Source: Nitrospira tepida (GTDB taxonomy: Bacteria; Nitrospirota; Nitrospiria; Nitrospirales; Nitrospiraceae). Taken from it: DNA of 64,000 bases. A model generated the notes under the pieces. That model was given only the letters and a program-made list of their open reading frames with translations, ran no database searches and was not told where the DNA came from. The translations under genes were made by a program, and so were the position numbers. Each line of letters opens with the position of its first letter. Position 1 is the first letter of the stretch. The stretch spans positions 2,760,001 through 2,824,000 of the forward strand of contig NZ_OX365700.1 in NCBI RefSeq assembly GCF_947241125.1. Reading direction: 5' to 3'. Shown here one piece after another: positions 21,907-37,154 of the stretch.

Positions 21907-21914
21907 TGACAAAG

Positions 21915-21952
21915 GGGGATTACTTAAGTCGTTGTTGGCTTGAGTAATCCCC
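21915..21952. repeat. Conserved hairpin beside the tRNA-Gly fragment, copy 2
   Basis: GGGGATTACTTAAG (21915-21928) pairs with CTTGAGTAATCCCC (21939-21952) with one G-T wobble. Compared with 10436-10477, the central G-C pair has become A-T on both arms. It is followed by TTGTCATTYCTGG in both copies. Confidence 0.65.
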
Positions 21953-22667
21953 TTGTCATTCCTGGCGAAACACACCATTGCCTGTTCATCCCGCGTTGGT
22001 TCCTCATCCTGCTCTTCTGCCCATTTCGTTGGTCTTCCTAACACCGTAATAACACCTGACAGAGAGCACGGTTTCAGGCTCCACGGGAAGGCTCCATGAG
22101 TCCTGGTGGTCATGCCGGGTAGGAACATGCCGGATAGGGGTCATTCCCCAAAGCGACTCTGCAACCCTCGTGCAACCAGATTGCTTCACGCTGAGCCACC
22201 CCGCTGACTCACGCTGCTCAGGCCCCCCTCAGGGGGTGCACCCTTGGGGCAGGTGCCGGGGGTGGGGGTGGTGGTCCATGTGCCAGGGCTGACAGTGCTC
22301 AGGGAAAAGGCCCCGGAAATTTTAGCGGGTGGCAAAAGGTAGGTGGAAAGGGGGCTGATTTGCCATAAAAAAGGATTTTGGAAGGATTTTGGGGCAGTTT
22401 AACGAGAAAGCTGTAGATTTCATTAGCTTACGTAGTCTTTAGTATGTGCAATGTCCGCGTGGACTCGGCGGTGACTCGGCGGGAAACCTCCGGTGGATAG
22501 ACCCTGCCTGGATTTCCGTCCGGCCTCGGGTGCATAGGGATCGGGACGGAAATTACCTGGAGAACTTGTGTCGAAGCTGAGTGAAGGGGAACCCTATCGG
22601 CCCGGCAATGACACGGGTGTCGCTGTTGTCGTAGAATACAGCCGTCCAGCCAAGCGCGGGGTGCACG

Positions 22668-22916
22668 ATGAGAATTCTACTTCCTGCCCTGCCCCTTCTT
22701 CTCTTGCTTTCAGGATGCGCCACAGTTGACGGAGAGCAGGTAGCCTCGGAATCGGTTGTGGCAGATGAGGCTACATGGAATCCATGCGCGGGGCATGCCG
22801 ACGAGAAAGTCATGGGGCCTGTTGAGGACATTCGACGGGCTGTGGCTGCTGGGGACCAAGCTGGCATTCAAAAGGCTATGAGAAACTTGTTGGCCTCCTT
22901 AGTGAAACTGGCATGA
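22668..22916 (+). CDS. Small putative lipoprotein of element A
   Basis: An 82-residue protein with a lipoprotein signal (RILLPALPLLLLLSGCATVDG), then an acidic mature part with one Cys (WNPCAGHADEK). I recognise no domain. The stop overlaps the ATG of the next gene (ATGA), indicating a two-gene unit. It may be cargo of the element. Confidence 0.65.
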   Translation: MRILLPALPLLLLLSGCATVDGEQVASESVVADEATWNPCAGHADEKVMGPVEDIRRAVAAGDQAGIQKAMRNLLASLVKLA

Positions 22917-23617
22917 CATGGGGACAGCGATTTGCGGATAACTATTTTAGGACTGGCATACAAGCTCGTCAGCGAGCGTATGCGTCTAAACTGGCCGCTG
23001 ATGTGGTCATGAACGAGATGCGGATGCCACGTGTCGTTGATGCGGTACAGCACGGTTTCCCCATTGAGTGGCTCATCCCAGGTGAGCAGACCCAGGCACT
23101 TTATGGGCACTTGATTCCTGCTGAGCCTCTCCAGTTTACCGCCGAAGGCGAGCCAGTGACATCGGTGAGACTTACCCCAACGCCAGCAGCGCCAGGGCAG
23201 AAACCGGCTGGAGTGGCCCTATGTCCACACGCTCGGTTGACTCCGTTTCAGACGAAAGTGTGGACAGGCGAACCGGAGGCCCAAGGGATCAAATCGAGCC
23301 AGCGAGACGAAACATCGGACTTTTCCCAGACTCGGAATGACCAGCAGCAATATTCAGTGTTTCAGCCACCTCAACAACTCATCCCAACACCAGGCGGCAG
23401 GGCGTTGCTCGGACCATACACACCCAACGCGTACGGCCCAGGAATGAATGCCGACGCCACGGGTAGACCATTTATATGGCAGCCAGATCCGGGTTTCGGT
23501 CCACCAGACCACTTTAGCACAGTGAAACCCGATGCCTACGGCCTTGGGGTTGGTATGGACCAATATGGACGACCTGTGAGGCCAGCTTGTCCACCAGGAT
23601 GGGCAGGACCTTGTTAG
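22913..23617 (+). CDS. Hypothetical proline-rich protein of element A
   Basis: A 234-residue protein, coupled to the upstream lipoprotein gene by an ATGA overlap. The N-terminal 80 residues look folded (QRFADNYFRTGIQARQRAYASKLAADVVMNEMRMPRVVD). The C-terminal half is low in hydrophobics and rich in Pro, Gly, Tyr and Gln, with repeated GP-x-YG and DxxGRP-type phrases (NAYGPGMNADATGRP, DAYGLGVGMDQYGRP). This suggests an extended or structural region. Function unknown. Confidence 0.6.
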   Translation: MTWGQRFADNYFRTGIQARQRAYASKLAADVVMNEMRMPRVVDAVQHGFPIEWLIPGEQTQALYGHLIPAEPLQFTAEGEPVTSVRLTPTPAAPGQKPAGVALCPHARLTPFQTKVWTGEPEAQGIKSSQRDETSDFSQTRNDQQQYSVFQPPQQLIPTPGGRALLGPYTPNAYGPGMNADATGRPFIWQPDPGFGPPDHFSTVKPDAYGLGVGMDQYGRPVRPACPPGWAGPC

Positions 23618-23653
23618 TCCCTATTCGGTAAGAAACCAAGCTAGCTTGAAGAT

Positions 23654-24280
23654 TCAATAGGCATCCGCGTTCATCGGACCACGCACACACCAGACATGTT
23701 GGGTGTCGGTTTTCCCTCCCCAGCCCACGTTGCCACCTGCGAAGTCCACGAGCCATGCGAGCGTAGAATTCTCGGCAACGGTAGTCGCCGACCAATAAGG
23801 GAATGACTGGACCCCTGTAAAGGTGCTCGTTGGCACAAAAGGTGATGGTAGCCCGGCGTCTTGGAGGCTCTTCAATTCGATTGCCGAGGGTAGCCGCCAC
23901 CCAACCGTGCTGCCAACGCTCTTATTAACACAATCGCGGATCGCTTCGACCCAAGAGCGGGTGATGGCGACAGGCTGCTTCTCCCAAACCAATCCAGTGT
24001 TGTTGTCTCTTACCGCTACTACTCCCCCAAAGTTTGCTAAGACGGTAAACCGCGAAGCACTCGGGAAATTCTTGTCCCAGTTCTGAGTGACTCCCTGAAG
24101 GTTCAGGCCGTCTATCTTGGATTCGAGCACGTTGAGTTTGTCCAAAATCTGTTGCTCGGTAGTGGTATTCTGCGCATTGACAGATGCCGATCCACCATCA
24201 CCACCACCGCACCCGAGCAAGAAACAAAGTGGGATGCTCAGAACAACCAATCGCAGGGCATGAAGTAGGAAGATGTTCAT
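23654..24280 (-). CDS. DUF1566 (Lcl C-terminal) lipoprotein
   Basis: A 208-residue protein starting at ATG 24280 behind GAGGAGGCC. A signal peptide with lipobox (IPLCFLLGCGGGD) is followed by a short coiled-coil (EQQILDKLNVLESKIDGLN) and a DUF1566 domain (VRDNNTGLVWEKQ, WRLPSAIELKSL, FPYWSATTVAENSTLAWLVDFAGGNV, VWCVRG). DUF1566 proteins are often exported or attached to surfaces; their function is poorly known. It probably counts as cargo. Confidence 0.8.
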   Translation of the reverse strand: MNIFLLHALRLVVLSIPLCFLLGCGGGDGGSASVNAQNTTTEQQILDKLNVLESKIDGLNLQGVTQNWDKNFPSASRFTVLANFGGVVAVRDNNTGLVWEKQPVAITRSWVEAIRDCVNKSVGSTVGWRLPSAIELKSLQDAGLPSPFVPTSTFTGVQSFPYWSATTVAENSTLAWLVDFAGGNVGWGGKTDTQHVWCVRGPMNADAY

Positions 24281-24455
24281 GGTGGCCTCCTCCCTCAACG
24301 GTAAAACCCCTGACCCAATTCCGGCCCCCGATGTGGCGCTATTCTAGGAACCCGCAAGAAGGTATGACAAGAACGGAAAGTGAGAAATGGTGGTATTTTG
24401 CCAGAATCAGCAGGCGGTTGCTGGAAGCTACAGATGTCTCTATTTAGCGAGAGGT

Positions 24456-24475
24456 CCCCGCCCTGACAGGCGGGG
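24456..24475. repeat. GC-rich hairpin CCCCGCC-N6-GGCGGGG
   Basis: A perfect 7-bp stem, extendable by flanking GAG/CTC. It resembles the end hairpins of IS200/IS605-type elements, but no tnpA or tnpB gene is present. A terminator for a lost gene is the alternative. Confidence 0.45.
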
Positions 24476-24687
24476 TCTCCGTTGTTTCATGCATCGCATG
24501 AGCCGCTTCGCGGCTCCCGGCTCTCACCCCCATCCTTCCTGATGGGGAACTCCCGCTAGATTAGACAAAATTAACGTCCTGACCCGGTTGTTTTTAGGCC
24601 CACAAAGGCGTTAGATAAATACCCTTCTTACAAAGCCCCTGCGGCGATTGAGCAGTAGTCCTACTATACAGGTGTTAACAGCATGCT

Positions 24688-24713
24688 CCCGCCCGCCCTT
24701 AAGGGCGGGCGGG
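24688..24713. repeat. Perfect 26-bp palindrome
   Basis: The left half is CCCGCCCGCCCTT and the right half is its exact complement, with no spacer. Such a structure could extrude as a cruciform or be a protein site or transposon-end hairpin. It lies in the gene-free part of element A. Confidence 0.75.
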
Positions 24714-25333
24714 CATAGCAGGTAGATGCTCTTCCTCTCCGACAATGGGGGTCTAGGGGTGGGGGGCCGTCCGCATTGGTGGCCACGGCAGCGATAAATG
24801 GGTCACCCATCTACCGCGAACGCAGGCGATTCTCCAACCCGTCGGCGAGAAAAAAAAGTGGGGGAGGGGTCGTTAAAAAACACGGCCAAAAACCGTTTAT
24901 TCCATTGGAAGAGTAAACGAAATAGCGCCAGCCTGGCAAACCCAGGATTTGCTTTCAAGACATCAGCCGGAGAGGATTTGCAACACGCGAATAAGTGAAC
25001 CATGGAAAAGGAAAAATTTTTTCCAATTGGCCGTTGCGCTCTTGACAATGGGCATGGCCCATGATTAGCTGGAATCACGATGGCAATAAAACACCTACGT
25101 GTCATTTTGCCGGTTTGACAGTCGGAAAGAAGTCTGAGGCGCGGTTGAGCGCTGAATGCAATATGGGTGTGGGGAATGCTCGCGTAGGCTTTGTGTGTCC
25201 TGAGTGCCGCTAAACGTACTCTGTCTACCTACTCACTAGGTAGCAGCTACCTCTCCACAGTATCAGTCCTCGTCCTCCCTATATACATACTCCCTATATA
25301 TCTATAGCTCCATAGCAGTGCATTCGTTACTTC

Positions 25334-25372
25334 GAGGGCCTCTCCCCACCTAGGGAGGAGGCCCTCTTTGTT
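25334..25372 (+). terminator. Terminator-like hairpin
   Basis: GAGGGCCTC (25334-25342) pairs with GAGGCCCTC (25358-25366), extended inward by TCCC/GGGA, and is followed by TTTGTT. It lies 65 bases before the 63-residue gene at 25437, so it would insulate the replication-type genes from upstream reading. Confidence 0.55.
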
Positions 25373-25436
25373 ATAGGCGTCCCTTTTTTTTTGTGTAGGG
25401 ACGGTCAACTTCACTCATTAACCATAGGGAGGATGT

Positions 25437-25628
25437 ATGCACATAACAGGAATCCATAGGGCGAGTAGTAACACGGTCTATTTCTATGCCCTCTGTATAC
25501 AGGACTTCACCCATATAGGGATAGGTCTAGCCAGGTATAGGAGAGACAGTACGAACAGATGGCGATGGGATTACACAGTGACCACACTATTGAACAATAA
25601 GCAAGGAGATCGAACATGCCGATTCTAA
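25437..25628 (+). CDS. Small hypothetical protein upstream of the RepA-like ATPase
   Basis: A 63-residue frame with a good ribosome site (AGGGAGG before ATG 25437). Its 3' end overlaps the start of the ATPase gene by 13 bases, as expected for a leader cistron. The composition is rich in Tyr and Arg (HIGIGLARYRRDSTNRWRW). No domain recognised. It could serve mainly to couple translation. Confidence 0.5.
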   Translation: MHITGIHRASSNTVYFYALCIQDFTHIGIGLARYRRDSTNRWRWDYTVTTLLNNKQGDRTCRF

Positions 25629-26656
25629 GTGCAGTGACAATAGGAGCAAGTCTGCTAGACGTTCAAACGATCATTGACGGTGAGCTACCAGCGGTAGATT
25701 GGGTGGTTGATCGGCTCATAGCGAAGGGTGACCGAGTACTGGTCTATGGTGAGCCTGGGTCACTGAAGTCATGGTTGATGCTCGACCTGGGCTTACATAT
25801 CGCTGCTGGGACTCCCTGGCTGGGACATTTCGAGATTCCAGAAAGGAAGAGGGTTCTCTACATAGACGAGGAAATGAGCCCACGCACATTAATTCGACGA
25901 GTAAAGAGGCTGATCGAAGGGTCAGACCTAGAGACGGACTCCTTGCCCTTCAAGGCACTGACCCTTTGTGGGGTGAGGTTCACCGATGAGAGTGTGGGGA
26001 CAACCCTCTTAGCTGGGCTCGCTACTCACGGGTTTAGCCCGGAGGTAGTGATCATTGAGACCATGAGAAGGGTTCTACATGGGAGTGAGAACAACGCCGA
26101 TGAAGTAGGAGCCTTCTGGAGATGCGTTGATTTGCTCAGGAAAGAAGGGAGGAGTCTAATTATCACCCACCACATGAAAAAGCCTTCAATGCATGGTGCC
26201 AATGAGTCCGTTTATAGAGCTAGCGGTAGCACTGATGTGTTGGGAGGGTCAGACTCAGCCTTTGCAGTAGAAAAACTACAAGCCAATAAGGTCTGTGTGA
26301 CATGCGTTAGAGCTCGCAATACACCTGAGGCATCACCGTTTTATGTTTCCCTACATGACACAGGGCCGGAAACACCGGCTTCAATGCGATTTGAGGGCCA
26401 AGGCGGTGCTCTAGTAGTGCCACAGAGCCGGGTTGAGGAGGTGGCCAACTGGATAGAGGAGTATCTGAGGGATCAGCAAGATCAGCAGGCGACGACTGCA
26501 CAGATCCGGCAGAATCTAGACACGGCACATCGTGTATCAAGCGATAGATGCGAGAAAGCCCTTAGGAGGCTTAGAGAGACTGGCAGAGTTACCCAGCCGG
26601 TGCACGGAGCCTACCGTATAGCGACTCAACAGGAGGTTGCCAGTGTCACAAACTGA
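25616..26656 (+). CDS. RepA-like RecA-fold ATPase (AAA_25)
   Basis: A 346-residue hexameric-helicase-type ATPase. Walker A is YGEPGSLKSWLMLDLG, Walker B region VLYIDEEMS and VVIIETMRR, and sensor IITHHMKK. The C-terminal 70 residues form a winged-helix-like part (TTAQIRQNLDTAHRVSSDRCEKALRRLRETGRV). RepA-type helicases of this sort drive replication of plasmids and integrative elements. ATG 25616 follows AAGGAG. It is the only replication-type gene in element A. Confidence 0.8.
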   Translation: MPILSAVTIGASLLDVQTIIDGELPAVDWVVDRLIAKGDRVLVYGEPGSLKSWLMLDLGLHIAAGTPWLGHFEIPERKRVLYIDEEMSPRTLIRRVKRLIEGSDLETDSLPFKALTLCGVRFTDESVGTTLLAGLATHGFSPEVVIIETMRRVLHGSENNADEVGAFWRCVDLLRKEGRSLIITHHMKKPSMHGANESVYRASGSTDVLGGSDSAFAVEKLQANKVCVTCVRARNTPEASPFYVSLHDTGPETPASMRFEGQGGALVVPQSRVEEVANWIEEYLRDQQDQQATTAQIRQNLDTAHRVSSDRCEKALRRLRETGRVTQPVHGAYRIATQQEVASVTN

Positions 26657-26977
26657 TCCGCCAAACCGCCTTACTTATATAAGTCGGCGGTGGCGGCGGT
26701 CTTTTGTGGACCGCCGGGCCAAAGACCACCGAGGCGGCGAGACTGGAAATACACGGGAGAACACTGTCCACGTGAACGGGGGCCAATTCCGAGCACGAGC
26801 GTAGCCTGAAGCGGAGCGAGTGCGAGGCTCTTGTTTCCTAAATACGAGGGTACTAACGAATCTAAACAATAGAGACTAGGACAGGCTAATAGCTTCCCTA
26901 GGTTAACCTACAGACCCCTGGGTTTCTCACGGGAATCGTGAGCTAGCCCTGGGGTTTTTTATTTCTGGAGGTATTTT
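26657..26977. other. Intergenic region with inverted repeats
   Basis: Contains GGCGG/CCGCC-rich inverted repeats just after the ATPase gene (26660-26740), a GAGCACGAGCGTAGCCTGAAG-like string near 26790 and a terminator (26914-26961). No gene seen. Confidence 0.45.
26914..26961 (+). terminator. Rho-independent terminator
   Basis: ACCCCTGGG (26914-26922) pairs with CCCTGGGGT (26947-26955) with one internal mismatch. An inner stem CTCACG/CGTGAG extends the hairpin, and a run of T follows (26955-26960). It ends the ATPase transcript. Confidence 0.75.
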
Positions 26978-27166
26978 ATGGAGCGTCTAACGCCTATTAA
27001 GGCCATAAGAGCCAAGTGCATGGACTGTACATGCCATCAACCCAAGGAAATCCGTGAGTGCCGTATTATCACCTGTCCGTTATGGCCCTACCGGATGGGT
27101 AAACGACCAAATCAGATACCCCAAACAAACCAGGAGGCAAAAGGTATTGAGCTATGCAGCATTTAA
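26978..27166 (+). CDS. Small Cys-rich phage-type protein
   Basis: A 62-residue protein with GGAGG before ATG 26978. The pattern KAIRAKCMDCTCHQPKEIRECRIITCPLWPYRMGKRPN is a small family common in phages and satellites, with four to five Cys arranged like a zinc site. Its role is unknown. It overlaps the excisionase gene by 13 bases. Confidence 0.75.
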   Translation: MERLTPIKAIRAKCMDCTCHQPKEIRECRIITCPLWPYRMGKRPNQIPQTNQEAKGIELCSI

Positions 27167-27348
27167 TCAACATAAAAGAGGCGGCTCAATACACGGGCCT
27201 GTCACCCCATACCCTCTACACGATGGTCAGTCAGCGGCGGATACCATTCGTGAAGGTGGGCCGGTTGGTCAAGTTCGATCTTGACCTGTTGGACAAATGG
27301 ATCAAACAGCATACCGTGATGCCGATGCCCAACAAATTGCAAACTTGA
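27154..27348 (+). CDS. Excisionase-like helix-turn-helix protein
   Basis: A 64-residue MerR-type/HTH_17 protein (LINIKEAAQYTGLSPHTLYTMVSQRRIPFVKVGRLVKFDLDLLDKWI). This is the usual form of excisionases that set recombination direction. The start overlaps the preceding gene. It belongs functionally with the integrase at 27869. Confidence 0.85.
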   Translation: MQHLINIKEAAQYTGLSPHTLYTMVSQRRIPFVKVGRLVKFDLDLLDKWIKQHTVMPMPNKLQT

Positions 27349-27352
27349 CGTG

Positions 27353-27372
27353 TGTACCCACTTATGGGTACA
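27353..27372. promoter_or_regulatory. Putative operator of the XRE regulator
   Basis: A perfect inverted repeat TGTACCC-N6-GGGTACA lies 14 bases before the GTG start of the XRE gene. Size and position fit an autoregulatory operator. Confidence 0.6.
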
Positions 27373-27385
27373 GTAGACTATCGTC

Positions 27386-27823
27386 GTGTTACGGCTCAGA
27401 GAGATACGACAGAGACAAGACGTAAGCCTTCGCCGTCTCAGTCTGGAGACGGGAATTGCCCTTTCCACACTACAGAGAGTGGAGCTAGGTGCCTTTGATC
27501 CGAGGCTCTCTACGCTCCGTGAGTTGGCGAAGGCCCTGAACGTATCGATCGCTGATCTGATAGGTGAAAGAGGCAGGCCATTTCCCAATTCAACAATCAC
27601 AAGGAAGGGGGCAAGTATGGCTCAGAGGTACAGCGTCCAGCGAAAGGATAAGGCAGTTAGCAATGCGGTCAGCGCCTTTGAGAAATGGCGAAGACAATAC
27701 GTTGTAAAAGGTCTTGGACCATTTGTCTGGAACTATGAATATGACCAGGTAGACCAAGCAACTAAGCTACTAAAGTTTCTTTTGACCAACCTCAAGGGGG
27801 CCGATTCAAGATCATCGGAGTAA
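27386..27823 (+). CDS. XRE-family transcriptional regulator
   Basis: A 145-residue protein starting at GTG 27386. The N-terminal helix-turn-helix is clear (LREIRQRQDVSLRRLSLETGIALSTLQRVELGAFDPRLSTLRELAKALNVSIADLIGE). The C-terminal 70 residues are basic and aromatic (KWRRQYVVKGLGPFVWNYEYD) without a known domain. Probably the element A maintenance repressor. Confidence 0.85.
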   Translation: MLRLREIRQRQDVSLRRLSLETGIALSTLQRVELGAFDPRLSTLRELAKALNVSIADLIGERGRPFPNSTITRKGASMAQRYSVQRKDKAVSNAVSAFEKWRRQYVVKGLGPFVWNYEYDQVDQATKLLKFLLTNLKGADSRSSE

Positions 27824-27868
27824 GGTTTCAGTAAACCGCATTAACTCAGCGAAAGGAGGGGTAGTCCA

Positions 27869-29122
27869 ATGGGACTGACCAAACGGAAGGACAGTTACTA
27901 TGTCGAGTTCCCTGTACTGGATGATGGCAAGGTGCTCAAGCTAGCGCCACCGGGCACAGGCAAGTTGAAACGGTGGAAGGTGGGAACGCTGAACCGGCGC
28001 TATGCTAAGGATCAAGAGGCCATCATTAAGACACGCCTCCTGTCCGGCCAGATACCTAGTCCGGCGGTGGCCCGTGCCGAAGCCATGACGTTTCGGCAGT
28101 GGGCGGAGATTTATTTGAACCTTGAGGAAGTGAAGAAGCTGAAGAGTTACCCCCTTCGCAAGTTGTATGTGGGGAATCTGGTGAAGTTCTTCAGGGACAA
28201 ACCGTTGGCCGCGATCACCCCGGAGGAGGTTGCTGCGTATCGGGCGCAACGAGTCCAGTACAGGCGGATTCAATGTCCTGAATGCAAGAAACGAAAAGAG
28301 AGGCGGTTTGTCGGGCAGGAGGTCTGCCCTGCGTGTGGTTGGAAGCGCGAGGATGCCCCGCGTCCGGTCTCCTTGCAGACGATCAACCATGACCATACGG
28401 CGTTAACTCACATGCTGAATGTGGCGCGCAGTCCGCGTTTCAAGGTGATCCTGGACAATCCGGCGAGCCACGTGAAGAAGCCAGACCCGAAGAACGAGCG
28501 GGACAGGATCGCCAGCACGGACGAATGGCTTCGGTTGAAGGAAGCGGCAGCGCCGCATCTGCGCCGAGTCCTCACGGTGGCCTATGCGGTCGGTCCTCGA
28601 AAGGGAGAACTGCTGAAGCTCGAATGGTCGGACGTAGACATGAAACGGAGGGAGGTTACACTTCGAGACACCAAGAATGGGGAAAGCCGCATGGTTCCCA
28701 TGACAGAGGAGGTGTACGAAGTGTTTAAGGAGTGCTGGAAGGAACGCCGACTCGACACGCAACGAGTTTTCCTGTATAAAGAGAGGCTGATTTCTCGACT
28801 CAATACGGCGTTCAATGCGGCTTGCCGTCGAGCGGGAATCGTCGGGCTTCGGATTCACGATTTTCGCCACACGGCGAGCACGAACCTCAGGCGGGCAGGG
28901 GTAGACACGGCCACGGCTATGAAGATCGTCGGCCACAAGTCCGAGCGGATGCATCGGCGGTACAACACCATTCAGCCGGAAGACCTGCACCGAGCCGTTT
29001 CAAAGCTTGCCGTGTTCCAGGCTAACACTGTAATAACACCTGAGCCTGTGGCGGTAGGAGCCGAAATTGTAAGTGCGCGACAAACCGAAGCGAGCGGGCG
29101 TAGCTCAGTGGTAGAGTCCTAG
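27869..29122 (+). CDS. Tyrosine integrase of element A, with inserted zinc ribbon
   Basis: A 417-residue tyrosine recombinase. Catalytic residues: Arg in VGPRKGELLKLEW, Lys in RDTKNGESR, HxxR in IHDFRHTAS, His in GHKSE and Tyr in RRYNTIQPED. A zinc-ribbon-like CPECKKRKERRFVGQEVCPAC interrupts the core-binding part near residues 135-155. The last residues (SGRSSVVES) are encoded by the 5' end of the tRNA-Gly gene. The TAG stop shares CTAG with the opposing integrase. It catalyses integration of element A at the anticodon arm. Confidence 0.95.
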   Translation: MGLTKRKDSYYVEFPVLDDGKVLKLAPPGTGKLKRWKVGTLNRRYAKDQEAIIKTRLLSGQIPSPAVARAEAMTFRQWAEIYLNLEEVKKLKSYPLRKLYVGNLVKFFRDKPLAAITPEEVAAYRAQRVQYRRIQCPECKKRKERRFVGQEVCPACGWKREDAPRPVSLQTINHDHTALTHMLNVARSPRFKVILDNPASHVKKPDPKNERDRIASTDEWLRLKEAAAPHLRRVLTVAYAVGPRKGELLKLEWSDVDMKRREVTLRDTKNGESRMVPMTEEVYEVFKECWKERRLDTQRVFLYKERLISRLNTAFNAACRRAGIVGLRIHDFRHTASTNLRRAGVDTATAMKIVGHKSERMHRRYNTIQPEDLHRAVSKLAVFQANTVITPEPVAVGAEIVSARQTEASGRSSVVES

Positions 29123-29168
29123 CTTCCCAAGCTAGTTGTCGTGGGTTCAAATCCCATCGCCCGCTCCA
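29094..29168 (+). tRNA. tRNA-Gly (anticodon CCC), CCA encoded
   Basis: A full cloverleaf: acceptor GCGGGCG/CGCCCGC, D-arm GCTCAGTGGTAGAGT, anticodon stem CTAGC/GCTAG with loop TTCCCAA (anticodon CCC), T-arm TGGGTTCAAATCCCA, discriminator T and genomic CCA. The 5' part lies inside the element A integrase gene, and the minus strand of the anticodon and T-arm region lies inside the element B integrase gene. It is the only intact copy in the window. Confidence 0.97.
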
Positions 29169-30390
29169 ATTTTTCAACCGGTTCCGTTACCCTCTCTTCA
29201 CTCTCTCTGACCTCCGTTCCGGTTTCAGTCACGGTTCCAGAAAGCAATCGATCTGCACTCGGTTGTGAGGGAGTCGGGGAGAACAATCCGAAGCGGCCAA
29301 CCGTTTCCACCGCGGCCTTGAGATGCGCTTGACTGAGATGGGCGTAGCGCTTCACCAGGGCCGTCGAGGAGTGGCGCAGCAAGGCCGCGATGGTGCCTTC
29401 ATTGTGGCCCGCCATCGCCAACCGGCTGGCGAAGGTATGCCGGAGATCGTGCCATCGCACATCGAGCAATCCCGCGTCCCGCACCGCCGGGCAGAAGATT
29501 CGCGAGTAGACGTTGCGTTGATCCATCGGGCGAGCGGGATTCTCTGACGGAAAGACCCAGGGAGAGGCGCGCTTGGGGTGAGCAATCGCCCGGGCCTCTG
29601 CGATGGCCTTCATGTTGGCGAGAATCTGCCGGGCTTCCTCCGGGAGATGCACGTACTGCACCCCGCCGGCTTTCGTTTCCGGTAACGTGAGCAAGCCCAG
29701 GTCAAGGTTCACATCCCGCCAGCGGAGCCGCATCTGTTCCCCAAGGCGAAGGCCGGTCAGAATCGCCAAGCGCGCCCAGGGCGCATGATCAGGCCCGAGC
29801 TTGTCGAGCAGTGTGGCTTCTTCCTCTGGGGTCAAGAACCGCATCCGGCTTGGCCGTATCTTCACCAGCGTCACCCGCTCAAACGGATTACGATCGATCC
29901 GCCCATCGCGCTTCGCTTTATTCAGCACATGCCGAAGAAACTTCATGTAATGCAACACGGTTTGCGGAGCCCTGGTCACGGGGGTCGCTTCGTGCTTTGG
30001 GTCGAGGTTTTCGGTCAACAGTTCCCGCTGTGCCGCTTCCAGGAGGGCAGGGGTGACGGCATTCACACGGAGACCCTGTAGCCGTGCCTTCCACCATTCC
30101 CCATAGTGCTTCTCGGCCCATTGATTCTTCACGGTCGAGGTCTCGACATGCGCCGTGATCAGATCTGTCATCAAGGGATAGCCGCCGTGCTGGTATCGCT
30201 CAGGAAAGAAGCGCCCGGCCTTTTGTTCCTGTTTCGCCTTCTCGTAGAAATCCCGCGCAGCCGTCTTCGTCGAGAAGCTTCCGAACCGCCGCTCTCGGCC
30301 ATCGTGGTAGAGCCGCACGTACCATATCGTCTTCCCGGCCGCGTCCTGCTTCGACAGCAAGCCCCGATCTTTTCGTCCTGCTCGTGCCAT
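29119..30390 (-). CDS. Tyrosine integrase of element B
   Basis: A 423-residue tyrosine recombinase. ATG 30390 follows AAAGGAGGAGCG. The N-terminal arm-binding domain (TIWYVRLYHDGRERRFGSFSTKTAARDFYEKAK) is followed by the catalytic domain: Arg in LTGLRLGEQMRLRW, Lys in ETKAGG, HxxR in WHDLRHTFAS, His in RHSST and Tyr in KRYAHLS. The C-terminal tail LERAMGFEPTTTSLGS is read from the tRNA-Gly minus strand. It inserts element B into the 3' side of the tRNA. Confidence 0.95.
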   Translation of the reverse strand: MARAGRKDRGLLSKQDAAGKTIWYVRLYHDGRERRFGSFSTKTAARDFYEKAKQEQKAGRFFPERYQHGGYPLMTDLITAHVETSTVKNQWAEKHYGEWWKARLQGLRVNAVTPALLEAAQRELLTENLDPKHEATPVTRAPQTVLHYMKFLRHVLNKAKRDGRIDRNPFERVTLVKIRPSRMRFLTPEEEATLLDKLGPDHAPWARLAILTGLRLGEQMRLRWRDVNLDLGLLTLPETKAGGVQYVHLPEEARQILANMKAIAEARAIAHPKRASPWVFPSENPARPMDQRNVYSRIFCPAVRDAGLLDVRWHDLRHTFASRLAMAGHNEGTIAALLRHSSTALVKRYAHLSQAHLKAAVETVGRFGLFSPTPSQPSADRLLSGTVTETGTEVRESEERVTEPVEKLERAMGFEPTTTSLGS

Positions 30391-30517
30391 CGCTCCTCCT
30401 TTCAGAGAGTTTTTCCCTGGTTCCGTGAAGGCGGAACGCCGTATTTCGCATATGAGCCACGATCTGGAGCAAGACCAGGGGGAAGGCCGGGCTTCCCCCT
30501 GATCGTGGGTCGTGGCC

Positions 30518-30757
30518 TCAGTCCTGACACGCCAGCGTCCCCAGGATCCGCGCCACCGCCTCCCGCTCTTTCGCCGTCGCGCGTTCAATCCGATACCCGC
30601 AGCCAACCCAGGACATCAGGTCCAAGGCGCCGCCATCGGGTAGGACCATGACGGGTTGGCCGTAACTGCTCGTACTATGCGTCGTGCTGAGGCGGACTGT
30701 GACCCTCTTGCGCGCTGGGGACTCTCCAAATGGATCGACTCGGTATGAGCATGTCAT
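30518..30757 (-). CDS. Small hypothetical protein of element B
   Basis: A 79-residue protein. ATG 30757 is preceded by AAGGAGGGGGAATC. The N-terminal half is basic with a strand-rich look (CSYRVDPFGESPARKRVTVRLST); the C-terminal half ends with a helix (IERATAKEREAVARILGTLACQD). No domain recognised. Same strand as the other satellite genes. Confidence 0.6.
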   Translation of the reverse strand: MTCSYRVDPFGESPARKRVTVRLSTTHSTSSYGQPVMVLPDGGALDLMSWVGCGYRIERATAKEREAVARILGTLACQD

Positions 30758-30773
30758 GATTCCCCCTCCTTGG

Positions 30774-31034
30774 TTACGGCCACCAGGCCGGCAGTGAGTA
30801 TTCAATCCCTCCGGTCTCTCGGTTCCGGTCCCGCGTCAGTGGGGCTTTCAACAGGCGAAGCGCCTGGAGGTAGCGATAGAATTCCCGATGCGGGATCCCT
30901 AAGACCTGCTCCACGTGCGCCCGGCTGCTCGGGCGCCGTTGGAGGAGCCAGATCAGTTCCAGCCCCTCCGCCAGGATGCGCTTCTTGATCTCAACCCCGT
31001 TCGGCAGTCTCGGGCGTGGCCGGCGCCGTCGCAT
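30774..31034 (-). CDS. Small winged-helix-like protein of element B
   Basis: An 86-residue protein with ATG 31034 behind GGAGGGAGCC. The N-terminus is Arg-rich (MRRRRPRPRLP), then two to three helices (EGLELIWLLQRRPSSRAHVEQVLGIPHREFYRYLQALRLL) that resemble a winged helix. A DNA-binding role is inferred from this pattern only. Confidence 0.6.
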   Translation of the reverse strand: MRRRRPRPRLPNGVEIKKRILAEGLELIWLLQRRPSSRAHVEQVLGIPHREFYRYLQALRLLKAPLTRDRNRETGGIEYSLPAWWP

Positions 31035-31055
31035 GGCTCCCTCCGTGGTGGCGGG

Positions 31056-31196
31056 CTAGGCGCCACGTTGGCTTTTGAAGTGCTGTTCCAGTAAGTGGCG
31101 AATCAGGCCCGCCGCCGTCGTGCCGCGTTTGCGCTCGGCGTCGAGCTTGGCCTTGAGGGTTTTCGGCAGTTGCACAACGAGGCGCGTCATTTTCAT
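31056..31196 (-). CDS. Ribbon-helix-helix protein (minus strand of the divergent pair)
   Basis: A 46-residue protein. ATG 31196 gives MKMTRLVVQLPKTLKAKLDAER, a complete ribbon-helix-helix strand and first helix, followed by GTTAAGLIRHLLEQHFK. It is divergent from another RHH gene at 31293, with a palindrome between them. Likely a repressor of one or both. Confidence 0.75.
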   Translation of the reverse strand: MKMTRLVVQLPKTLKAKLDAERKRGTTAAGLIRHLLEQHFKSQRGA

Positions 31197-31220
31197 GGCT
31201 AATCTCCTATCGTGATATTT

Positions 31221-31240
31221 ATGATATGTACGCATATCAT
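31221..31240. promoter_or_regulatory. Palindromic operator between two RHH genes
   Basis: ATGATATG-TACG-CATATCAT is a perfect inverted repeat in an AT-rich gap between divergent ribbon-helix-helix genes. A partial third GTGATAT half-site lies just upstream. RHH repressors commonly bind such tandem boxes. Confidence 0.65.
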
Positions 31241-31292
31241 ATGCTGTCAAGTGCTATTTACCCATCGCCGACACCGTGCTATCTTCGCCACC

Positions 31293-31484
31293 ATGCCAAA
31301 GAAAACAGATCAAGAAAAAGGCGGGTCCTGGATCTTCCGGGACATCCCGCGAGAGCTTATGAAGCGTGCCAAAATTGCCGCCGCAGTAGAGGGCAAGTCG
31401 ATCAAGGCCCTCATTTTGGAGGCCCTGGACGAACATCTGCAGGGGATGGAGAAGAAAGGGCTGTTGCCGAAAGGGAAGGGCTAA
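31293..31484 (+). CDS. Arc-like ribbon-helix-helix protein (plus strand)
   Basis: A 63-residue protein, the only plus-strand gene in element B. The motif GSWIFRDIPRELMKRAKIAAAVEGKSIKALILEALDEHLQ fits Arc/MetJ-type DNA-binding proteins. ATG 31293 has no strong ribosome site. It may control the satellite switch together with the opposing RHH gene. Confidence 0.75.
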   Translation: MPKKTDQEKGGSWIFRDIPRELMKRAKIAAAVEGKSIKALILEALDEHLQGMEKKGLLPKGKG

Positions 31485-31646
31485 TCGAGATTCTTCCGGT
31501 GTTTGACGATGGCCGCGAGGAGCCGGCGCCTGAACATCCGGGAAAAAGTGGGGGCTCTTGGCGCGGCGAGAGTGTCCCGCGGGCTCCGCGCCAAGTTTGT
31601 GCCGCCGTGGCCGCCCCCAAGCCGCCGGTGGAGGCCCGCGAGCCGC

Positions 31647-32885
31647 TTACGCCATCTGCAAGGCTTTGACCGCCCCGCCGCCGCCGTCCACCAGGTCGCC
31701 ATCCGCGCGGATGAACGCCAGGAAGCCCAGTTGCAAGTAATCGGCATACCGTTCTTCCAGCCGCAACACGCGCGGTTCTTTCACCAGCCGGACATAGTAC
31801 GCCGACAGATCACCGAACAGAATCGCCTTGTTCCCGGTGGCCAGGCTCGGCATGTTCGGATCAATGACGACCGGCTTGCCGAGGAGTGAATCCGGGCTGC
31901 CGGCGGCCAAGTCCCCATACAGCGGGCGGTTCTGTGAATCCTTCAGTTTCCGTAGCGCCCCGAAGGTGGTGTCATTCATGAGCCACTTGCCGTTCTGGCG
32001 ATACAGCGGATCGACGCTGTGCATGTGGTCCACCAGCTCATCATAGGTGACCGCCGTGGCGCTGGCGGCCGTCTTGCCCACCGTGGCCGCGGTGACAATC
32101 CCGCGCGGTTTGGAGCTGCCGTCCCCCGTCACCCAGTGCTTCGCCGTAATCCGCCCCAAGCGCTCCCCGAGCTTCTTCATGACGTAGGCCGCGAAGTCAA
32201 AGCCGGCATCGTCCATGAGTTGGATTGAGACGCGCACGATCTTCGAGGAATAGAGGAAGCTCTGCAACACGACTTGCGAGAGCACGACATCGCCTTCGTT
32301 GTGTTGCGTGTTCTCTGAGATGATCTCGCCCTCGACGGCCGTTTCATTATCCGCTGGGATGGGCAGGTCCGCGCCCGTCGCGGATGGCACGATCGTGCAG
32401 TTCGGCAACACCCCGCCGATCTGTTTCAGCGCTTCCACCAGGGGCGCCATCGCCGCGTCCGGCACGGCATACCCGCCTGCGCCGCCAGAGCCCACCCCTT
32501 GCGCCATGCGGATGTCGGGATCATGGCGCAGCCGCTTCGTCATGATCGCCCGCTCATCTGGATCGAGCCCGTTGATCCCGAATTTCAGGAAGTTCGAAAA
32601 GGCCCGGACCTCCGGTTCCCCCTCATCCTCCGACAGTCCCGGCCGTGAGGACAGCCCGCGTAGGATGCGATCCATCTTCGGATCGCGCCGGCCGGCATCG
32701 GTCAGCGCATCCCCGAGTTCCGCTTCTCGAATCTGCGCGGCCAGACGATCGACTTCCACCATAATCCCGTCAAAGCGCGCCTCGATCTGCTTGGTAAAGG
32801 GCTCGCGTTTGAGGAGCGCTTGGGCCTCGTCGAGCAAGCGCCCGCGCTGCTCCCGAAGTTGCTGTGCACGTGTGAAGGACGACAT
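31647..32885 (-). CDS. HK97-family major capsid protein
   Basis: A 412-residue capsid protein. ATG 32885 follows GGAGG. Residues 1-100 form the charged coiled-coil scaffold-like region (LREQRGRLLDEAQALLKRE). Then comes the HK97 fold (GGYAVPDAAMAPLVEALKQIGGVLPNC, SVDPLYRQNGKWLMNDTTFGALRKLKDSQNRPLY, LLGKPVVIDPNMPSLATGNKAILFGDLSAYYVRLV, DYLQLGFLAFIRADGDLVDGGGGAVKALQMA). No protease or portal gene accompanies it, unlike ordinary HK97 prophages. Confidence 0.93.
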   Translation of the reverse strand: MSSFTRAQQLREQRGRLLDEAQALLKREPFTKQIEARFDGIMVEVDRLAAQIREAELGDALTDAGRRDPKMDRILRGLSSRPGLSEDEGEPEVRAFSNFLKFGINGLDPDERAIMTKRLRHDPDIRMAQGVGSGGAGGYAVPDAAMAPLVEALKQIGGVLPNCTIVPSATGADLPIPADNETAVEGEIISENTQHNEGDVVLSQVVLQSFLYSSKIVRVSIQLMDDAGFDFAAYVMKKLGERLGRITAKHWVTGDGSSKPRGIVTAATVGKTAASATAVTYDELVDHMHSVDPLYRQNGKWLMNDTTFGALRKLKDSQNRPLYGDLAAGSPDSLLGKPVVIDPNMPSLATGNKAILFGDLSAYYVRLVKEPRVLRLEERYADYLQLGFLAFIRADGDLVDGGGGAVKALQMA

Positions 32886-32990
32886 AGCGAAACCTCCGTT
32901 GTTGAAAATCCCCGGAGGTTCGCCGTTCTGGCGGGTGGTCCGCCGCGGCGACATGCGGAGGCGGACAGCGTGCGGGGGTGAATGTGTCAT

Positions 32991-33167
32991 TTATAAGTTT
33001 ACAGTATCGTTCCTAGATGAATCAACCTTCTCGCGCGTTTCACGCGCCGCGCGTTCATCGCGCACCGCGGCTTCTATCTTTGCATCAATCCAGGTCTGAT
33101 AGATCGAGCAAATCCCTTTCAATTGCCGCAACAGCGCGCGATGGAATTGCACATCGAGACTATCCAC
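32991..33167 (-). CDS. Small protein between terminase and capsid genes
   Basis: A 58-residue helical protein starting at GTG 33167, overlapping the end of the small terminase gene. Sequence: SLDVQFHRALLRQLKGICSIYQTWIDAKIEAAVRDERAARETREK. No named family. The charged helix suggests a structural or accessory packaging role, but that is inference. Confidence 0.55.
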   Translation of the reverse strand: MDSLDVQFHRALLRQLKGICSIYQTWIDAKIEAAVRDERAARETREKVDSSRNDTVNL

Positions 33168-33651
33168 GGCGCGGCCTCTGCGGTTCGAAGAACTTTGCGA
33201 TGCCCTTCGGCTCGCTGTCGTTCGGAAGCGGCGACACGCGGGCATGCTGGGCCGGTGTGGCACCCAGTTCGGCCAAGGCCGCTTGATAGGCGCGGCGTTC
33301 TTGCTGCATGATCCGCACTTCCGGCCGCGGTCTCGTCATCCTCAGCCCATCGCGTTCCGTTTCATAGGTGGCGCCGTGCTCGGCAATCGCCCTCTCGGCC
33401 CTCTTGAACATCGAATATGCGGTCGCGGCAATAAGTAGAATGCCATAGTCCGCTTCGCACAACACCCCATGCTCTCCGCCAAGGAGCAAAACCAAGCGAT
33501 CCCATTCGGCGCTCGCGTCGGCATCGAGATCAGCCGGCTTCTGCGGAGTGCCGACCACGAAGGGAGAGGTTCGCGCGGAGGTCAGCGGGCGTTTGCCCGG
33601 GTTTCCACGTAGGATGCGAAGACGCTGCGGATTCGGCTTTCTGCCTCTCAT
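33160..33651 (-). CDS. Phage terminase small subunit, P27 family
   Basis: A 163-residue protein starting MRGRKPNPQRLRILRGNPGKRPL, the signature of P27-type TerS proteins, and continuing WDRLVLLLGGEHGVLCEADYGILLIAATAYSMFKRAERAI. ATG 33651 follows GGGAGGCCTT. TerS selects DNA for packaging. The satellite has no large terminase gene, so it would need a helper enzyme. Confidence 0.92.
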   Translation of the reverse strand: MRGRKPNPQRLRILRGNPGKRPLTSARTSPFVVGTPQKPADLDADASAEWDRLVLLLGGEHGVLCEADYGILLIAATAYSMFKRAERAIAEHGATYETERDGLRMTRPRPEVRIMQQERRAYQAALAELGATPAQHARVSPLPNDSEPKGIAKFFEPQRPRRG

Positions 33652-33752
33652 AAGGCCTCCCTAAAAAACAGTTGCGAATTTCGCGGGGAAATCCCGAATG
33701 GGGACCCCGCGGTCTATACGTAAAGGCCCCAGACTTTTCACCCGCCATCCCC

Positions 33753-34199
33753 TCATGCGGGCAGATGTCCGCGAATCTGCCGCGGATCGACCAGCAACGG
33801 AGCAGGCTGGCCAAACACTTCCACGGCCACGGCCAGGCGGTACCCGCCAAAGACTTCCTGCACAACACCGAGCAAGTCCCCGTTGAGACTTCGCATGATC
33901 ACAGTGTCTCCAGGCTGGTATTTCGCTCCCGCCGCCGGCTGGTATTCCTCTCTGATCAACTCCCCCGCTTCGCCGTCATCATCGTCCAGCAGGTCGCACG
34001 GCGGGAGCTGCGCCGGCTGTGCTGGCAGGCGCGAAGTCGGCTGTCGGCGCCGCCGGAGGTTGGCCAACCTGGCCAACTGGCGCGCGCGCAGGTCTGCAAC
34101 CATGGCCAGCAGGCGTTGCCGTTCCGCCGAATCTTCCGCATTGATCCACGCCCAGCGGAGTTCGGCCGCTTCACGGGCGAAATCCTCACTGCCCGGCAT
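33753..34199 (-). CDS. Hypothetical protein of element B
   Basis: A 148-residue protein with ATG 34199 behind GAGGAGGAAATGAC. The first half is helical and Arg-rich (ELRWAWINAEDSAERQRLLAMVADLRARQLARLANLRRRR). The second half is a likely SH3-like or small beta domain (AGAKYQPGDTVIMRSLNGDLLGVVQEVFGGYRLAVAVEVFG). No named family. Confidence 0.65.
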   Translation of the reverse strand: MPGSEDFAREAAELRWAWINAEDSAERQRLLAMVADLRARQLARLANLRRRRQPTSRLPAQPAQLPPCDLLDDDDGEAGELIREEYQPAAGAKYQPGDTVIMRSLNGDLLGVVQEVFGGYRLAVAVEVFGQPAPLLVDPRQIRGHLPA

Positions 34200-34200
34200 G

Positions 34201-34533
34201 TCATTTCCTCCTCGTGTGAGATGAGAGGCGATCAACTCCATTCTCCACGCGCTCCAGCGTCACACATTCACCAGACCGCGTGATGCGGTAGGTTTCGCCC
34301 TGTGCGTTCGCCAACTCTTTCAATGCCCGCCCAGAGTAGCGGACGCCTTCAATGATCCACGTATCTGTCCCCACCTGATAGCCGCGCGTGCTGTTCATCC
34401 ACCAGTAAAAGAAGTCGCAGGGGTACAAAATGGCACGGACCATCAGTAACCAGGGTGGCAGAATCGCCCCTTCAGTTTGCCTGGAGGTTGCCAAGCGCCA
34501 CAGTCTGGCACGCAACGATCGGGCCTCCGTCAT
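34201..34533 (-). CDS. Hypothetical protein of element B
   Basis: A 110-residue protein. The start at 34533 overlaps the stop of the upstream gene (ATGA). It contains an aromatic hydrophobic stretch (LLMVRAILYPCDFFYWWMNS), then a beta-rich part (WIIEGVRYSGRALKELANAQGETYRITRSGECVTLERV). Function unknown. Confidence 0.6.
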   Translation of the reverse strand: MTEARSLRARLWRLATSRQTEGAILPPWLLMVRAILYPCDFFYWWMNSTRGYQVGTDTWIIEGVRYSGRALKELANAQGETYRITRSGECVTLERVENGVDRLSSHTRRK

Positions 34534-34724
34534 CGTTCACACGCCGGTTGATAGGTCCGGCCAGCCGGCGCAGGCGGCTCGGCCTGGCGGCTCGCTTCGT
34601 TGAGCAGACTGGCGAGGTTCGCCGCAGCCACCCAGGTCAGGCGGATTTCGGAACCGCCCGAACCGGTCAACAGAACCTCGTGCCGCTCGTGGTCAACGCT
34701 CACCGTCAGGCATGCAGGCGTCAT
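34530..34724 (-). CDS. Small hypothetical protein of element B
   Basis: A 64-residue protein. ATG 34724 overlaps the previous stop (ATGA), fixing the start. MTPACLTVSVDHERHEVLLTGSGGSEIRLTWVAAANLASLLNEASRQAE looks like a small alpha/beta unit. Unknown function. Confidence 0.6.
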   Translation of the reverse strand: MTPACLTVSVDHERHEVLLTGSGGSEIRLTWVAAANLASLLNEASRQAEPPAPAGRTYQPACER

Positions 34725-35032
34725 CGGCCGCGCTCCGTCATCCATTCCGCCGGAATCTTCGCCAGCCGGTCGGTCGCGGGATGCCAAACCAGGACCGAGC
34801 CATCGGGGTAGGTCGCGAGGACTTCACCCTCACAGGTTCCGAAGAGCGGGCTGTCCCAGCGGATCGGATCGCCAGGCTGGGGCAATCCAACCGGGCGCAC
34901 CCGGTCCCCCAGCTTCGCCAGAATCCGGCGCGCCCGGTCCGGTTCGACCTCCACCGGTTGCCCGGGGATGAGCACGATTTCCCCGCCAGGCCAGCGGTAA
35001 CGGATCGGCTGTCCGACCGCCTCAAGTCTCAT
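34721..35032 (-). CDS. Hypothetical protein of element B
   Basis: A 103-residue beta-rich protein (GQPIRYRWPGGEIVLIPGQPVEVEPDRARRILAKLG, PLFGTCEGEVLATYPDGSVLVWHPATDRLAKIP). Its start lies inside the end of the primase gene (11-base overlap). Unknown function; probably part of the same transcript. Confidence 0.6.
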   Translation of the reverse strand: MRLEAVGQPIRYRWPGGEIVLIPGQPVEVEPDRARRILAKLGDRVRPVGLPQPGDPIRWDSPLFGTCEGEVLATYPDGSVLVWHPATDRLAKIPAEWMTERGR

Positions 35033-37067
35033 CGTCGATGATCTCCGCCCCTATCTCCCAAGATTCTTGTTCCAGAGGACCGTTTTCTTGTTCTCGCATG
35101 GAGGCGAAAAGCCCAAAATCGCGGGAACAAGAATCATTGACGATATTTCGCGCGCTTACGTTCGTTTTCTGATTCTTGTTTTCTTGTTCCCCTATATATG
35201 GGGGAACAACAGAACAAGAACTCCTTGACTGGGGTGAGCTTGTCGCGTCAGGGTTCTTGTTCCCAAGTTCCGGCCGGGATTCTTGTTCCCGGTGTTCACA
35301 GGATCGGGCATATTTGAACGGGTCCGCCTTGCCACCCCGGCCAGTCTTGACAACCTTTCCGGCTCCGACCAGCGCTCGAAGCGCTTTGACCTTGACCCCG
35401 CGTCGGCCTTCCATTTGGTCAAGGATGACCTTCTCTTCGACGGGTTCCTTGGTCATCGCCAGGTAGTCGAGGATCGCGTCACCCATTGCGGCTTGATCCG
35501 CCACATCCCGGCTTGGTCCGGCTGCTATGGTCCGCGCTGTTGGGTCCCACGCCAACGTGATTTCTTCTAGGTCTTCGCCGTAGCGTTGAACGCTGCTCAA
35601 CGTGCGGTACTTCTCCGTGCGCTTCAGGAGCAGTGCAGTGTCCACCGCTGCAAAGATTGCGGTTGACCCTAAGATACTGTCTCCGCCCTCTCGATCACCC
35701 TTCCCCAAGTGATGAACAGCCAACACACCAGCACCCGTCTCCCGCGCCAGCGTCCCGAGCGGTTCTAAGGCTATCGTCACAGCTGCGTAGTCATTTGCGT
35801 CTTTTACGCGCGTGAAGCGAAAGAGTGGGTCCACGATGATCAACACTGGCGCGTAGCGACCCGCGGCTTTTCGCAACAGAGGCAACCCATCAGCGGGGGA
35901 AGGCGCACAGAAAATGTAGATGCGATCGTCCACCGTCGCCCCCATTTCTCGAAAGTGGCGCCTCACCTCCGACCGTTTTTCTTCCAGCGCAAGGTACAGG
36001 ACAGGCCCGCGCGAAGTGGGGAAGCTCAGAAACGTATCTCCCCGCGTTACAGCTAACGCAAGGCAACGAGCCATGGTCGATTTCCCCGCTTTCGGCTTGC
36101 CAGCGAGGAGCGAAAGGCCGCCCACCGGCAGGCGAGCTTCCAGCACCCATGGGCGCGTGTCTTCCGGCTCATTGAGCAAGTCACCAAGAGACGTGAAGAG
36201 CATCGGTCCATCATCCATGCCCCACGGCCGCGCGCTCGCCAGCAACGTTTCGAGTCGCTCACTGAACGCGGGGTCCCGTCGATACTGCGCGACAAAATCC
36301 GCCGCATCGCCTTTCGCCGGAGCCTCCGGCCATTCGACGAAGCGAACGCTTCGGGCCACTCCGGCGAGACGTTCACCGATCCGCTGCATGTGCGCGCGTC
36401 CTGGTTCGTCGTGATCAGGCCACAGAATCGCATCTCTTCCGCGAAGCACGTCCAGCGAGGCAAGCGACGGAGCGCTGTTGGCTCCGGTCACCGTCCCCAG
36501 CGCTGGGACTCCCGCCCACCAGAGCGCTTCAGCTGCTTTCTCGCCCTCGACCACGATGCGATGGTTAGGGTCGGTCCATTCGACTTCTGAGCCATAGAGG
36601 GGGAGATCCGCCGTCTTCCGACCGTTCAAGCCCGGGGTGCCGTCCAGGCGCCGCCAGGTGAACGTTTTCTCCCCGTCGCGATCGATGCGTTCATGGATCG
36701 CGACGAACTCTCCGCTGCGGTCGCAGATCTCGTATGCTGTCACGGATGCACCCTCTCTGTTCGGTTTTCCGTTCGCGTGAGTCACGCCGGCAAGCTCTTC
36801 GATGCGCCGCCGCTGTTCTTTGAATGTCTGGAGGCCTCCCAGCAACCCGATCAACTCAAACACGTCGGCGCCCTTCTCGCCGAGACACTTCCGGGACCAA
36901 CAGAAGGCCCGGCCGTCCTTGATCGTGACAGATGGGTGCGCATCGCTATTGCGATGTCGTTCCGGAAACGGGCATCGCCAACGCCCCTGCGCATCAGGGG
37001 TACTACCATAGCGTCTGAGCAGATCTGCGACAGAAACAAGATTTTTCAGTTCAGCAACCGTCGTCAT
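35022..37067 (-). CDS. Satellite primase-helicase
   Basis: A 681-residue replication protein. Domains in order: CHC2-like zinc finger (CPFPERHRNSDAHPS...FCWSRKCLGEKG, about 32-65), Toprim (HRIVVEGEKAAEALWWAG, then WPDHDEPGR, about 170-225) and RecA-like helicase (LLAGKPKAGKSTMARCLAL; Walker B APVLIIVDPLFRF; LAVHHLGKG, about 330-480). The low-complexity C-terminal tail (residues about 590-670) is encoded by the iteron cluster. It resembles the primase-helicases of phage satellites. Confidence 0.88.
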   Translation of the reverse strand: MTTVAELKNLVSVADLLRRYGSTPDAQGRWRCPFPERHRNSDAHPSVTIKDGRAFCWSRKCLGEKGADVFELIGLLGGLQTFKEQRRRIEELAGVTHANGKPNREGASVTAYEICDRSGEFVAIHERIDRDGEKTFTWRRLDGTPGLNGRKTADLPLYGSEVEWTDPNHRIVVEGEKAAEALWWAGVPALGTVTGANSAPSLASLDVLRGRDAILWPDHDEPGRAHMQRIGERLAGVARSVRFVEWPEAPAKGDAADFVAQYRRDPAFSERLETLLASARPWGMDDGPMLFTSLGDLLNEPEDTRPWVLEARLPVGGLSLLAGKPKAGKSTMARCLALAVTRGDTFLSFPTSRGPVLYLALEEKRSEVRRHFREMGATVDDRIYIFCAPSPADGLPLLRKAAGRYAPVLIIVDPLFRFTRVKDANDYAAVTIALEPLGTLARETGAGVLAVHHLGKGDREGGDSILGSTAIFAAVDTALLLKRTEKYRTLSSVQRYGEDLEEITLAWDPTARTIAAGPSRDVADQAAMGDAILDYLAMTKEPVEEKVILDQMEGRRGVKVKALRALVGAGKVVKTGRGGKADPFKYARSCEHREQESRPELGNKNPDATSSPQSRSSCSVVPPYIGEQENKNQKTNVSARNIVNDSCSRDFGLFASMREQENGPLEQESWEIGAEIIDDET
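35064..35289. repeat. Iteron cluster TTCTTGTTCY, candidate replication origin
   Basis: Eight copies: forward at 35064, 35085, 35173 (variant ending TT), 35181, 35254 and 35280; reverse at 35124 and 35211. A palindrome GTTCCCC-TATATATG-GGGGAAC (35186-35207) with an AT-rich centre sits in the middle. The array lies inside the 3' coding part of the primase-helicase gene, whose product there is the repetitive EQEN/EQES tail. Confidence 0.75.
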
Positions 37068-37112
37068 CTGTTGCCTCTTCTGTGCGCGAGCATCGCATCG
37101 AGTCGATCAAGT

Positions 37113-37151: not shown

Positions 37152-37154
37152 GCG

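Follow-up and report, generated by a model that had tools for sequence, protein, structure and literature searches.

A tRNA-Gly(CCC) gene of Nitrospira tepida apparently rebuilt from both sides by mobile elements

A locus of Nitrospira tepida raises the question of how a tRNA gene comes to be flanked by two tyrosine integrases that converge on it and have overlapping stop codons inside it. The locus belongs to a 64,000-nt stretch (the window, in its full length) of a complete 4.73-Mb genome. The only tRNA detected in the window by ARAGORN and Rfam was Gly(CCC), at 29094-29168 (69 bits). A similarity search of the whole genome gave one TCC and one GCC gene as further complete tRNA-Gly genes and did not turn up a second CCC gene, although a very divergent copy could escape this kind of search; the view of the first-pass annotation that the copy at 29094 is the only whole one was thus borne out. 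The central features are as follows.

27869-29122, plus strand: IntA, tyrosine integrase (Pfam PF00589, E=9e-30), final codons and stop in tRNA positions 1-29
29094-29168, plus strand: intact tRNA-Gly(CCC) (ARAGORN, Rfam), 5' part apparently from element A2 and 3' part from element B
29119-30606, minus strand: IntB, tyrosine integrase (Pfam PF00589, E=3e-23), final codons and stop in tRNA positions 26-75; the 30606 bound is provisional, its start codon being uncertain

Both integrase reading frames are uninterrupted, and the R, HxxR, H and Y residues that are invariant across the IntA family are present in IntA, whose homologues were found at tRNA 5' sides. A CTAG palindrome at 29119-29122 holds the two stop codons. 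As already described from the letters alone, the end of IntA occupies the 5' half of the tRNA and that of IntB the 3' half; the stops are reached at tRNA positions 29 and 26, respectively, so that each tRNA base doubles as an integrase codon or stop.

We favor, with a probability of about 0.9, the reading that the tRNA-Gly(CCC) gene 3' of tyrS is an attachment site that has been used from both sides and rebuilt by three elements, named A1, A2 and B. The intact tRNA, its displaced halves, the native flanks, the overlap of the integrases and the recurrence of the arrangement in relatives can all be read from the sequences themselves. Displaced pieces of the gene were found at three places.

9033-9061, plus strand: first displaced 5' half, original, tRNA positions 1-29 (match 9033-9062, positions 1-30, E=4e-6)
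9062-10415: insert of 1,354 bp splitting this half, made of a ~200-bp palindromic repeat with TIR CCCACATTATTCATGA and an IS110-family transposase inside
10416-10429, plus strand: remainder of the first displaced 5' half beyond the insert, CTAGCTTCCCAAGC
21868-21907, plus strand: 5' half, tRNA positions 1-40, apparently supplied by A1 and displaced by A2 (40 nt, 100%, E=3e-14)
38488-38533, plus strand: original 3' half, apparently displaced by B, tRNA positions 30-75 (46 nt, 96%, G50-C64, E=8e-15)

The E-values come from a search of the whole genome and put all three remnants well beyond chance. All had been noticed before, with two details to amend: the copy at 21868 is 40 nt long and ends at 21907, and the 9033 remnant, indeed a 5' half, is not merely 29 nt but is split by the 1.35-kb insert and resumes beyond it. 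The fragments lie in tRNA orientation at the far ends, 5' fragments upstream and the 3' fragment downstream, and fragments 1-40 and 30-75 both end at the anticodon arm, with the loop TTCCCAA common to them. Two positions separate the 9033 remnant from the intact copy. Beside the insert in this remnant lies CTAG, a candidate target duplication, and CTAG/TTAG recurs by the TIRs of the insert elsewhere; a near-identical core of the insert is also present at 38892-40085. The IS110-family element has a core of ~1.15 kb and 10 near-identical copies in the genome, including those at 9062-10415 and 38826-40375, and frequently sits inside a palindromic, MITE-like repeat of ~200 bp with TIR CCC[AG]CATTATTCATGA, of which the genome also holds many empty copies without the IS110-family element.

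The outermost halves are still joined to what appear to be the native surroundings of the gene.

7296-8621, plus strand: tyrS, tyrosyl-tRNA synthetase (Pfam tRNA-synt_1b), native left flank
8618-8983, plus strand: orf121, a 121-aa ORF of the native left flank, also in relative G020
8980-9009, plus strand: native tRNA promoter TTGACT-N18-CAGGAT, displaced along with the original 5' half
38534-38604: native right flank, aligning to the DNA directly 3' of the intact tRNA in G020

Alignment of 38488-38604 with the intact tRNA and downstream DNA of G020 gave 88% identity, and this relative also has orf121 and more distant right-hand genes in common with the window. Moreover, tyrS adjoins tRNA-Gly(CCC) in nearly all relatives, the empty arrangement (tyrS, promoter and tRNA without an element) exists in other genera, and TTGACT-17/18-TA[GC]GAT precedes the tRNA in most of 18 element-free loci. 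With tyrS and the promoter on the left and G020-like DNA on the right, the outermost halves are taken to be the original ones. In several genera a conserved module of ~150 nt lies 3' of tRNA-Gly(CCC) (loci L036, L040, L041, L044, L050, L053 and L055), which begins with the reverse complement of the T-arm, contains two GC-rich hairpins and closes with a copy of the tRNA 3' end, CCA included; G019 and G032 have similar copies close to another Gly tRNA, and no Rfam family matched the module.

Between the displaced halves and the intact gene we recognize a decayed element, A1, a second one, A2, in tandem with it, and B on the other side.

About 10430-21867: element A1, decayed 5'-side element with a DrmD-like helicase, a broken type III restriction gene and integrase traces
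10435-10477: left-end hairpin within A1
10562-10578: arm-type repeat within A1
21908-29093: element A2, 5'-side element of 7.2 kb ending in IntA
21908-21957, plus strand: conserved hairpin at the A2 left end, directly after the displaced tRNA 5' half (fold z = -3.85)
22039-22055, plus strand: A2 arm-type repeat TAACACcgTAATAACAC near the left end, also found in other elements
25616-26656: A2 primase/helicase
27386-27823: A2 repressor-like gene
29023-29039, plus strand: A2 arm-type repeat TAACACtgTAATAACAC within the 3' end of intA
29123-38487: element B, 3'-side element of 9.4 kb
31647-32990: B major capsid protein, HK97-type
33160-33651: B terminase small subunit
35022-37067: B primase/helicase

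The sequences that follow the two 5' halves are homologous (10416-10521 and 21893-21998), and the left ends of A1 and A2 share a hairpin and, equally spaced, the repeat TAACACnnTAATAACAC, which argues that they are tandem members of one element type. No intact integrase was found in A1 by tblastn with IntA, only traces. The cargo of A1 (12251-21667) comprises a DISARM DrmD-like helicase, an IS3-type transposase and a type III restriction gene in three frames. Related left ends open with the hairpin GGGGATTGCTCAAGTC...GGCTTGGGCAATCCCC directly after the tRNA core; in a comparison of 16 of them, compensatory changes, on both sides of the pair, were seen in 5 of the 16 predicted pairs, and a T-run is absent. 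We think that this hairpin may serve as a transcription stop against the displaced native promoter, or as a site for the integrase or an accessory factor. As for B, a scan of part of its ORFs revealed capsid, small terminase and primase/helicase genes besides the integrase. The cfPICI-like phage satellites carry a capsid gene, and B bears a putative likeness to them in being small and having an integrase, a major head protein, a small terminase and a primase/helicase. Alternatively, B may be a prophage remnant.

The mechanism that we propose is the following. Elements of the IntA type would integrate on the 5' side of the tRNA by crossover in the 7-nt anticodon loop, TTCCCAA. Such an insertion would leave the former promoter stranded at the far end together with the former 5' half, and the resident 3' half would now be preceded by a new 5' half that the integrase gene brings along at its 3' end. 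This would have occurred twice, with A1 and then with A2 in tandem. Independently, B would have been integrated by IntB on the 3' side, in the same loop, replacing the 3' half and moving the old one to 38488. The working tRNA would then be the joint of the att cores of A2 and B, with the anticodon loop alone assignable to neither. We infer that the recombinases made these joints, that the events followed this order, and that the tRNA is now expressed either from a promoter within the element or by transcription running on from intA.

Relatives in which a single side has been used are consistent with this scheme. A 5'-side element alone is found at tRNA-Gly(CCC) in G032, G145 and G108, in each case with the native promoter still on the displaced 5' half, which in G145 and G108 is exactly 40 nt long. 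In G108 the displaced half has host sequence (CCTTGC) before the anticodon loop and element sequence (GCTGA) directly behind TTCCCAA, which locates the crossover within this loop. Four other genomes (G148, G151, G172 and G154) contain a 3'-side element with an IntB relative alone, and there the native promoter is retained. G155 is two-sided, with a 40-nt 5' half at C17:59500, 13.6 kb upstream of the tRNA, and a 47-nt 3' half at C17:110589, 37.5 kb downstream. That one element per side had supplied the two halves was therefore a sound proposal as regards the sides, judging from one-sided and two-sided relatives, and needs correction as regards the number, since the 5'-side elements are two.

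The 3' half carries a further sign of exchange. At T-stem pair 50-64 the intact copy reads T50-A64 and the displaced one G50-C64, as the first reading of the sequence had it, and the two sides of this pair are the only differences across 46 nt. The chance that two random substitutions produce such a pair-preserving double change in the T-stem is ~0.0015, which argues that the displaced 3' half derives from a working tRNA and agrees with the earlier claim that this half was really exchanged. Within the family T50-A64 prevails; no whole tRNA with G50-C64 was found among 175 family genomes, and one, a tRNA-Gly(CCC), is present in G057, from another family. B thus probably substituted the common 3' allele for a lineage-specific one. 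The 5' side offers no such marker: the rebuilt 75 nt are the family consensus and are found unchanged in nine other genomes, several of them without any element at the site, so that no allele separates the half of A2 from the displaced one. The first-pass annotation had regarded an element-free relative with exactly this sequence, or the lack of any empty site with the 38488 T-arm, as evidence against its scheme. Such relatives exist and such an empty site was seen in 0/175 family genomes, yet the mechanism stands, the 75 nt being the family consensus and the genomes coming from other genera. The claim of an entirely mobile origin holds by descent, outside the 7-nt loop, and fails for the sequence, which element-free relatives share: judged from these alignments, this tRNA-Gly(CCC) is mobile by descent and not foreign in sequence.

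Two other accounts of the joints deserve consideration. A single element of 16.7 kb (21868-38533) that arrived with an intact tRNA of its own and interrupted the host tRNA in the anticodon loop would explain that the outer halves sum to one whole tRNA cut at that loop. However, other genomes have A-type elements by themselves 5' of the tRNA and B-type elements by themselves 3' of it, A and B each have their own integrase flush to the tRNA, and A1 and A2 repeat the 5' unit alone, in tandem; the single composite element was rejected on the existence of the one-sided relatives, and we regard it as scarcely credible. It is also conceivable, but very improbable, that the displaced 3' half started out identical to the intact one and changed after its displacement, B having restored the same sequence with no exchange of alleles. 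Relatives near enough for comparison do have T50-A64, and remnants can drift, as the two differences of the 9033 remnant from the intact copy illustrate; nevertheless, drift would have had to hit both sides of one T-stem pair and nothing else in 46 nt (~0.0015), yielding a state, G50-C64, that the whole tRNA of G057 also has.

A third objection concerns expression alone and is compatible with two-sided integration. The displacement of the native promoter together with the 5' half, overlooked in the earlier reading, is the most consequential effect of the rearrangement. According to a promoter scan, the promoter stays with the displaced 5' half in G000, G155, G145 and G108, and in G032 TTGACT and TAGGAC are by sequence still beside it. 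In the window, promoter scanning found no clear sigma-70 promoter directly upstream of the rebuilt tRNA. The rebuilt gene could accordingly be silent, or nearly so, with GGG read by tRNA-Gly(TCC), the native promoter removed to 8980-9009, whatever promoter lies ahead of 29094 weak or absent, and IntB transcribed against the tRNA. A Gly(TCC) gene is present, and the decoding of GGG by a UCC anticodon is established wobble; a poorly expressed CCC tRNA would thus probably be tolerated. Against silence, the tRNA sequence is intact and equal to the consensus, and in other 5'-side elements promoter-like sequences (TTGACC-N17-TAAAA[CG] or TTGCAC-N17-TAATAT) lie inside the element ahead of the tRNA. 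On balance we consider a silent copy unlikely, at about one chance in four. Read-through from intA appears the simplest source of transcription for the tRNA in the window, and read-through expression has been described for archaeal pTN3-like integrases (PMC8371274).

The examined loci yielded 67 non-redundant integrases, 57 of which abut a tRNA by their 3' end, 41/57 on the 5' side and 16/57 on the 3' side, counts that include integrases opposite IntA-type ones and in which related sequences are non-independent draws. The targets of the 5'-sided integrases are Gly-CCC, Pro-TGG, Arg-TCT, Arg-CCT and Thr-TGT. On a maximum-likelihood tree of 64 of the 67, side requires two changes and tRNA identity 13: the side is conserved while the target tRNA often switches. 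Relatives of IntB were on tRNA 3' sides in all 14 cases examined. Relatives of IntA in genome contigs come nearly all from Nitrospira or Nitrospirales records, and a scan of viral contigs gave one close relative only; the integrase family of IntA is specific to Nitrospirota and mostly tRNA 5'-sided. Integrases occupy both sides of the tRNA at nine loci in eight genomes (Gly-CCC, 2; Arg-TCT, 2; Arg-CCT, 3; Thr-TGT, 2), with both displaced halves verified at two of the nine, the window and G155; in G076 there are two displaced tRNA-Arg 3' halves, and the contig ends short of any 5' half. The two-sided and 5'-sided arrangement is a recurrent feature of the lineage and not an oddity. Whether it extends to a general rule we hold to be an even question: 5'-specialised integrases of Nitrospirota may, through repeated replacement of the promoter and 5' half, put the Gly-CCC, Pro-TGG, Arg-TCT, Arg-CCT and Thr-TGT tRNAs under element transcription while 3'-side integrases from other lineages rebuild the other half, so that mobile DNA would both assemble and express some cellular tRNAs in full.

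Insertion 5' of tRNA genes is considered rare, presumably since it costs the gene its promoter, and here whole integrase lineages practise it, inheriting their side preference far more stably than their target, with two-sided tRNAs recurring. The loci offer a natural system for studying how hosts tolerate the replacement of a tRNA promoter, whether elements control host tRNA levels, and why integrases pick one side of a symmetric site.

No description of a tRNA rebuilt from both sides was found in the open-access literature. The tRNA islands of Islander/TIGER resemble the present elements in their tyrosine integrase, anticodon-loop crossover, restoration of the target by a half that the element carries, fragment displaced to the far end and tandem arrays (PMC4383910). 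Among Islander islands 3760/3919 restore the 3' half and 159/3919 have a 5' fragment (PMC4383910), whereas here the IntA family is mostly 5'-sided (41/57), with a single tRNA rebuilt on both of its sides. The anticodon-loop class is that of the Williams sublocation scheme, as far as it is relayed in PMC8371274. The pTN3-like archaeal elements likewise have their attachment site in the tRNA 5' half (tRNA-Leu for pTN3) and cut the restored tRNA off from its original promoter (PMC8371274, PMC5495485). Their suicidal integrase, in contrast, is split on integration, while the bacterial integrases described here stay whole, stop in or near the tRNA and use several tRNA identities. The chemistry is thus ordinary, site-specific integration at a tRNA; it is the form, 5'-sided and two-sided, that is unusual.
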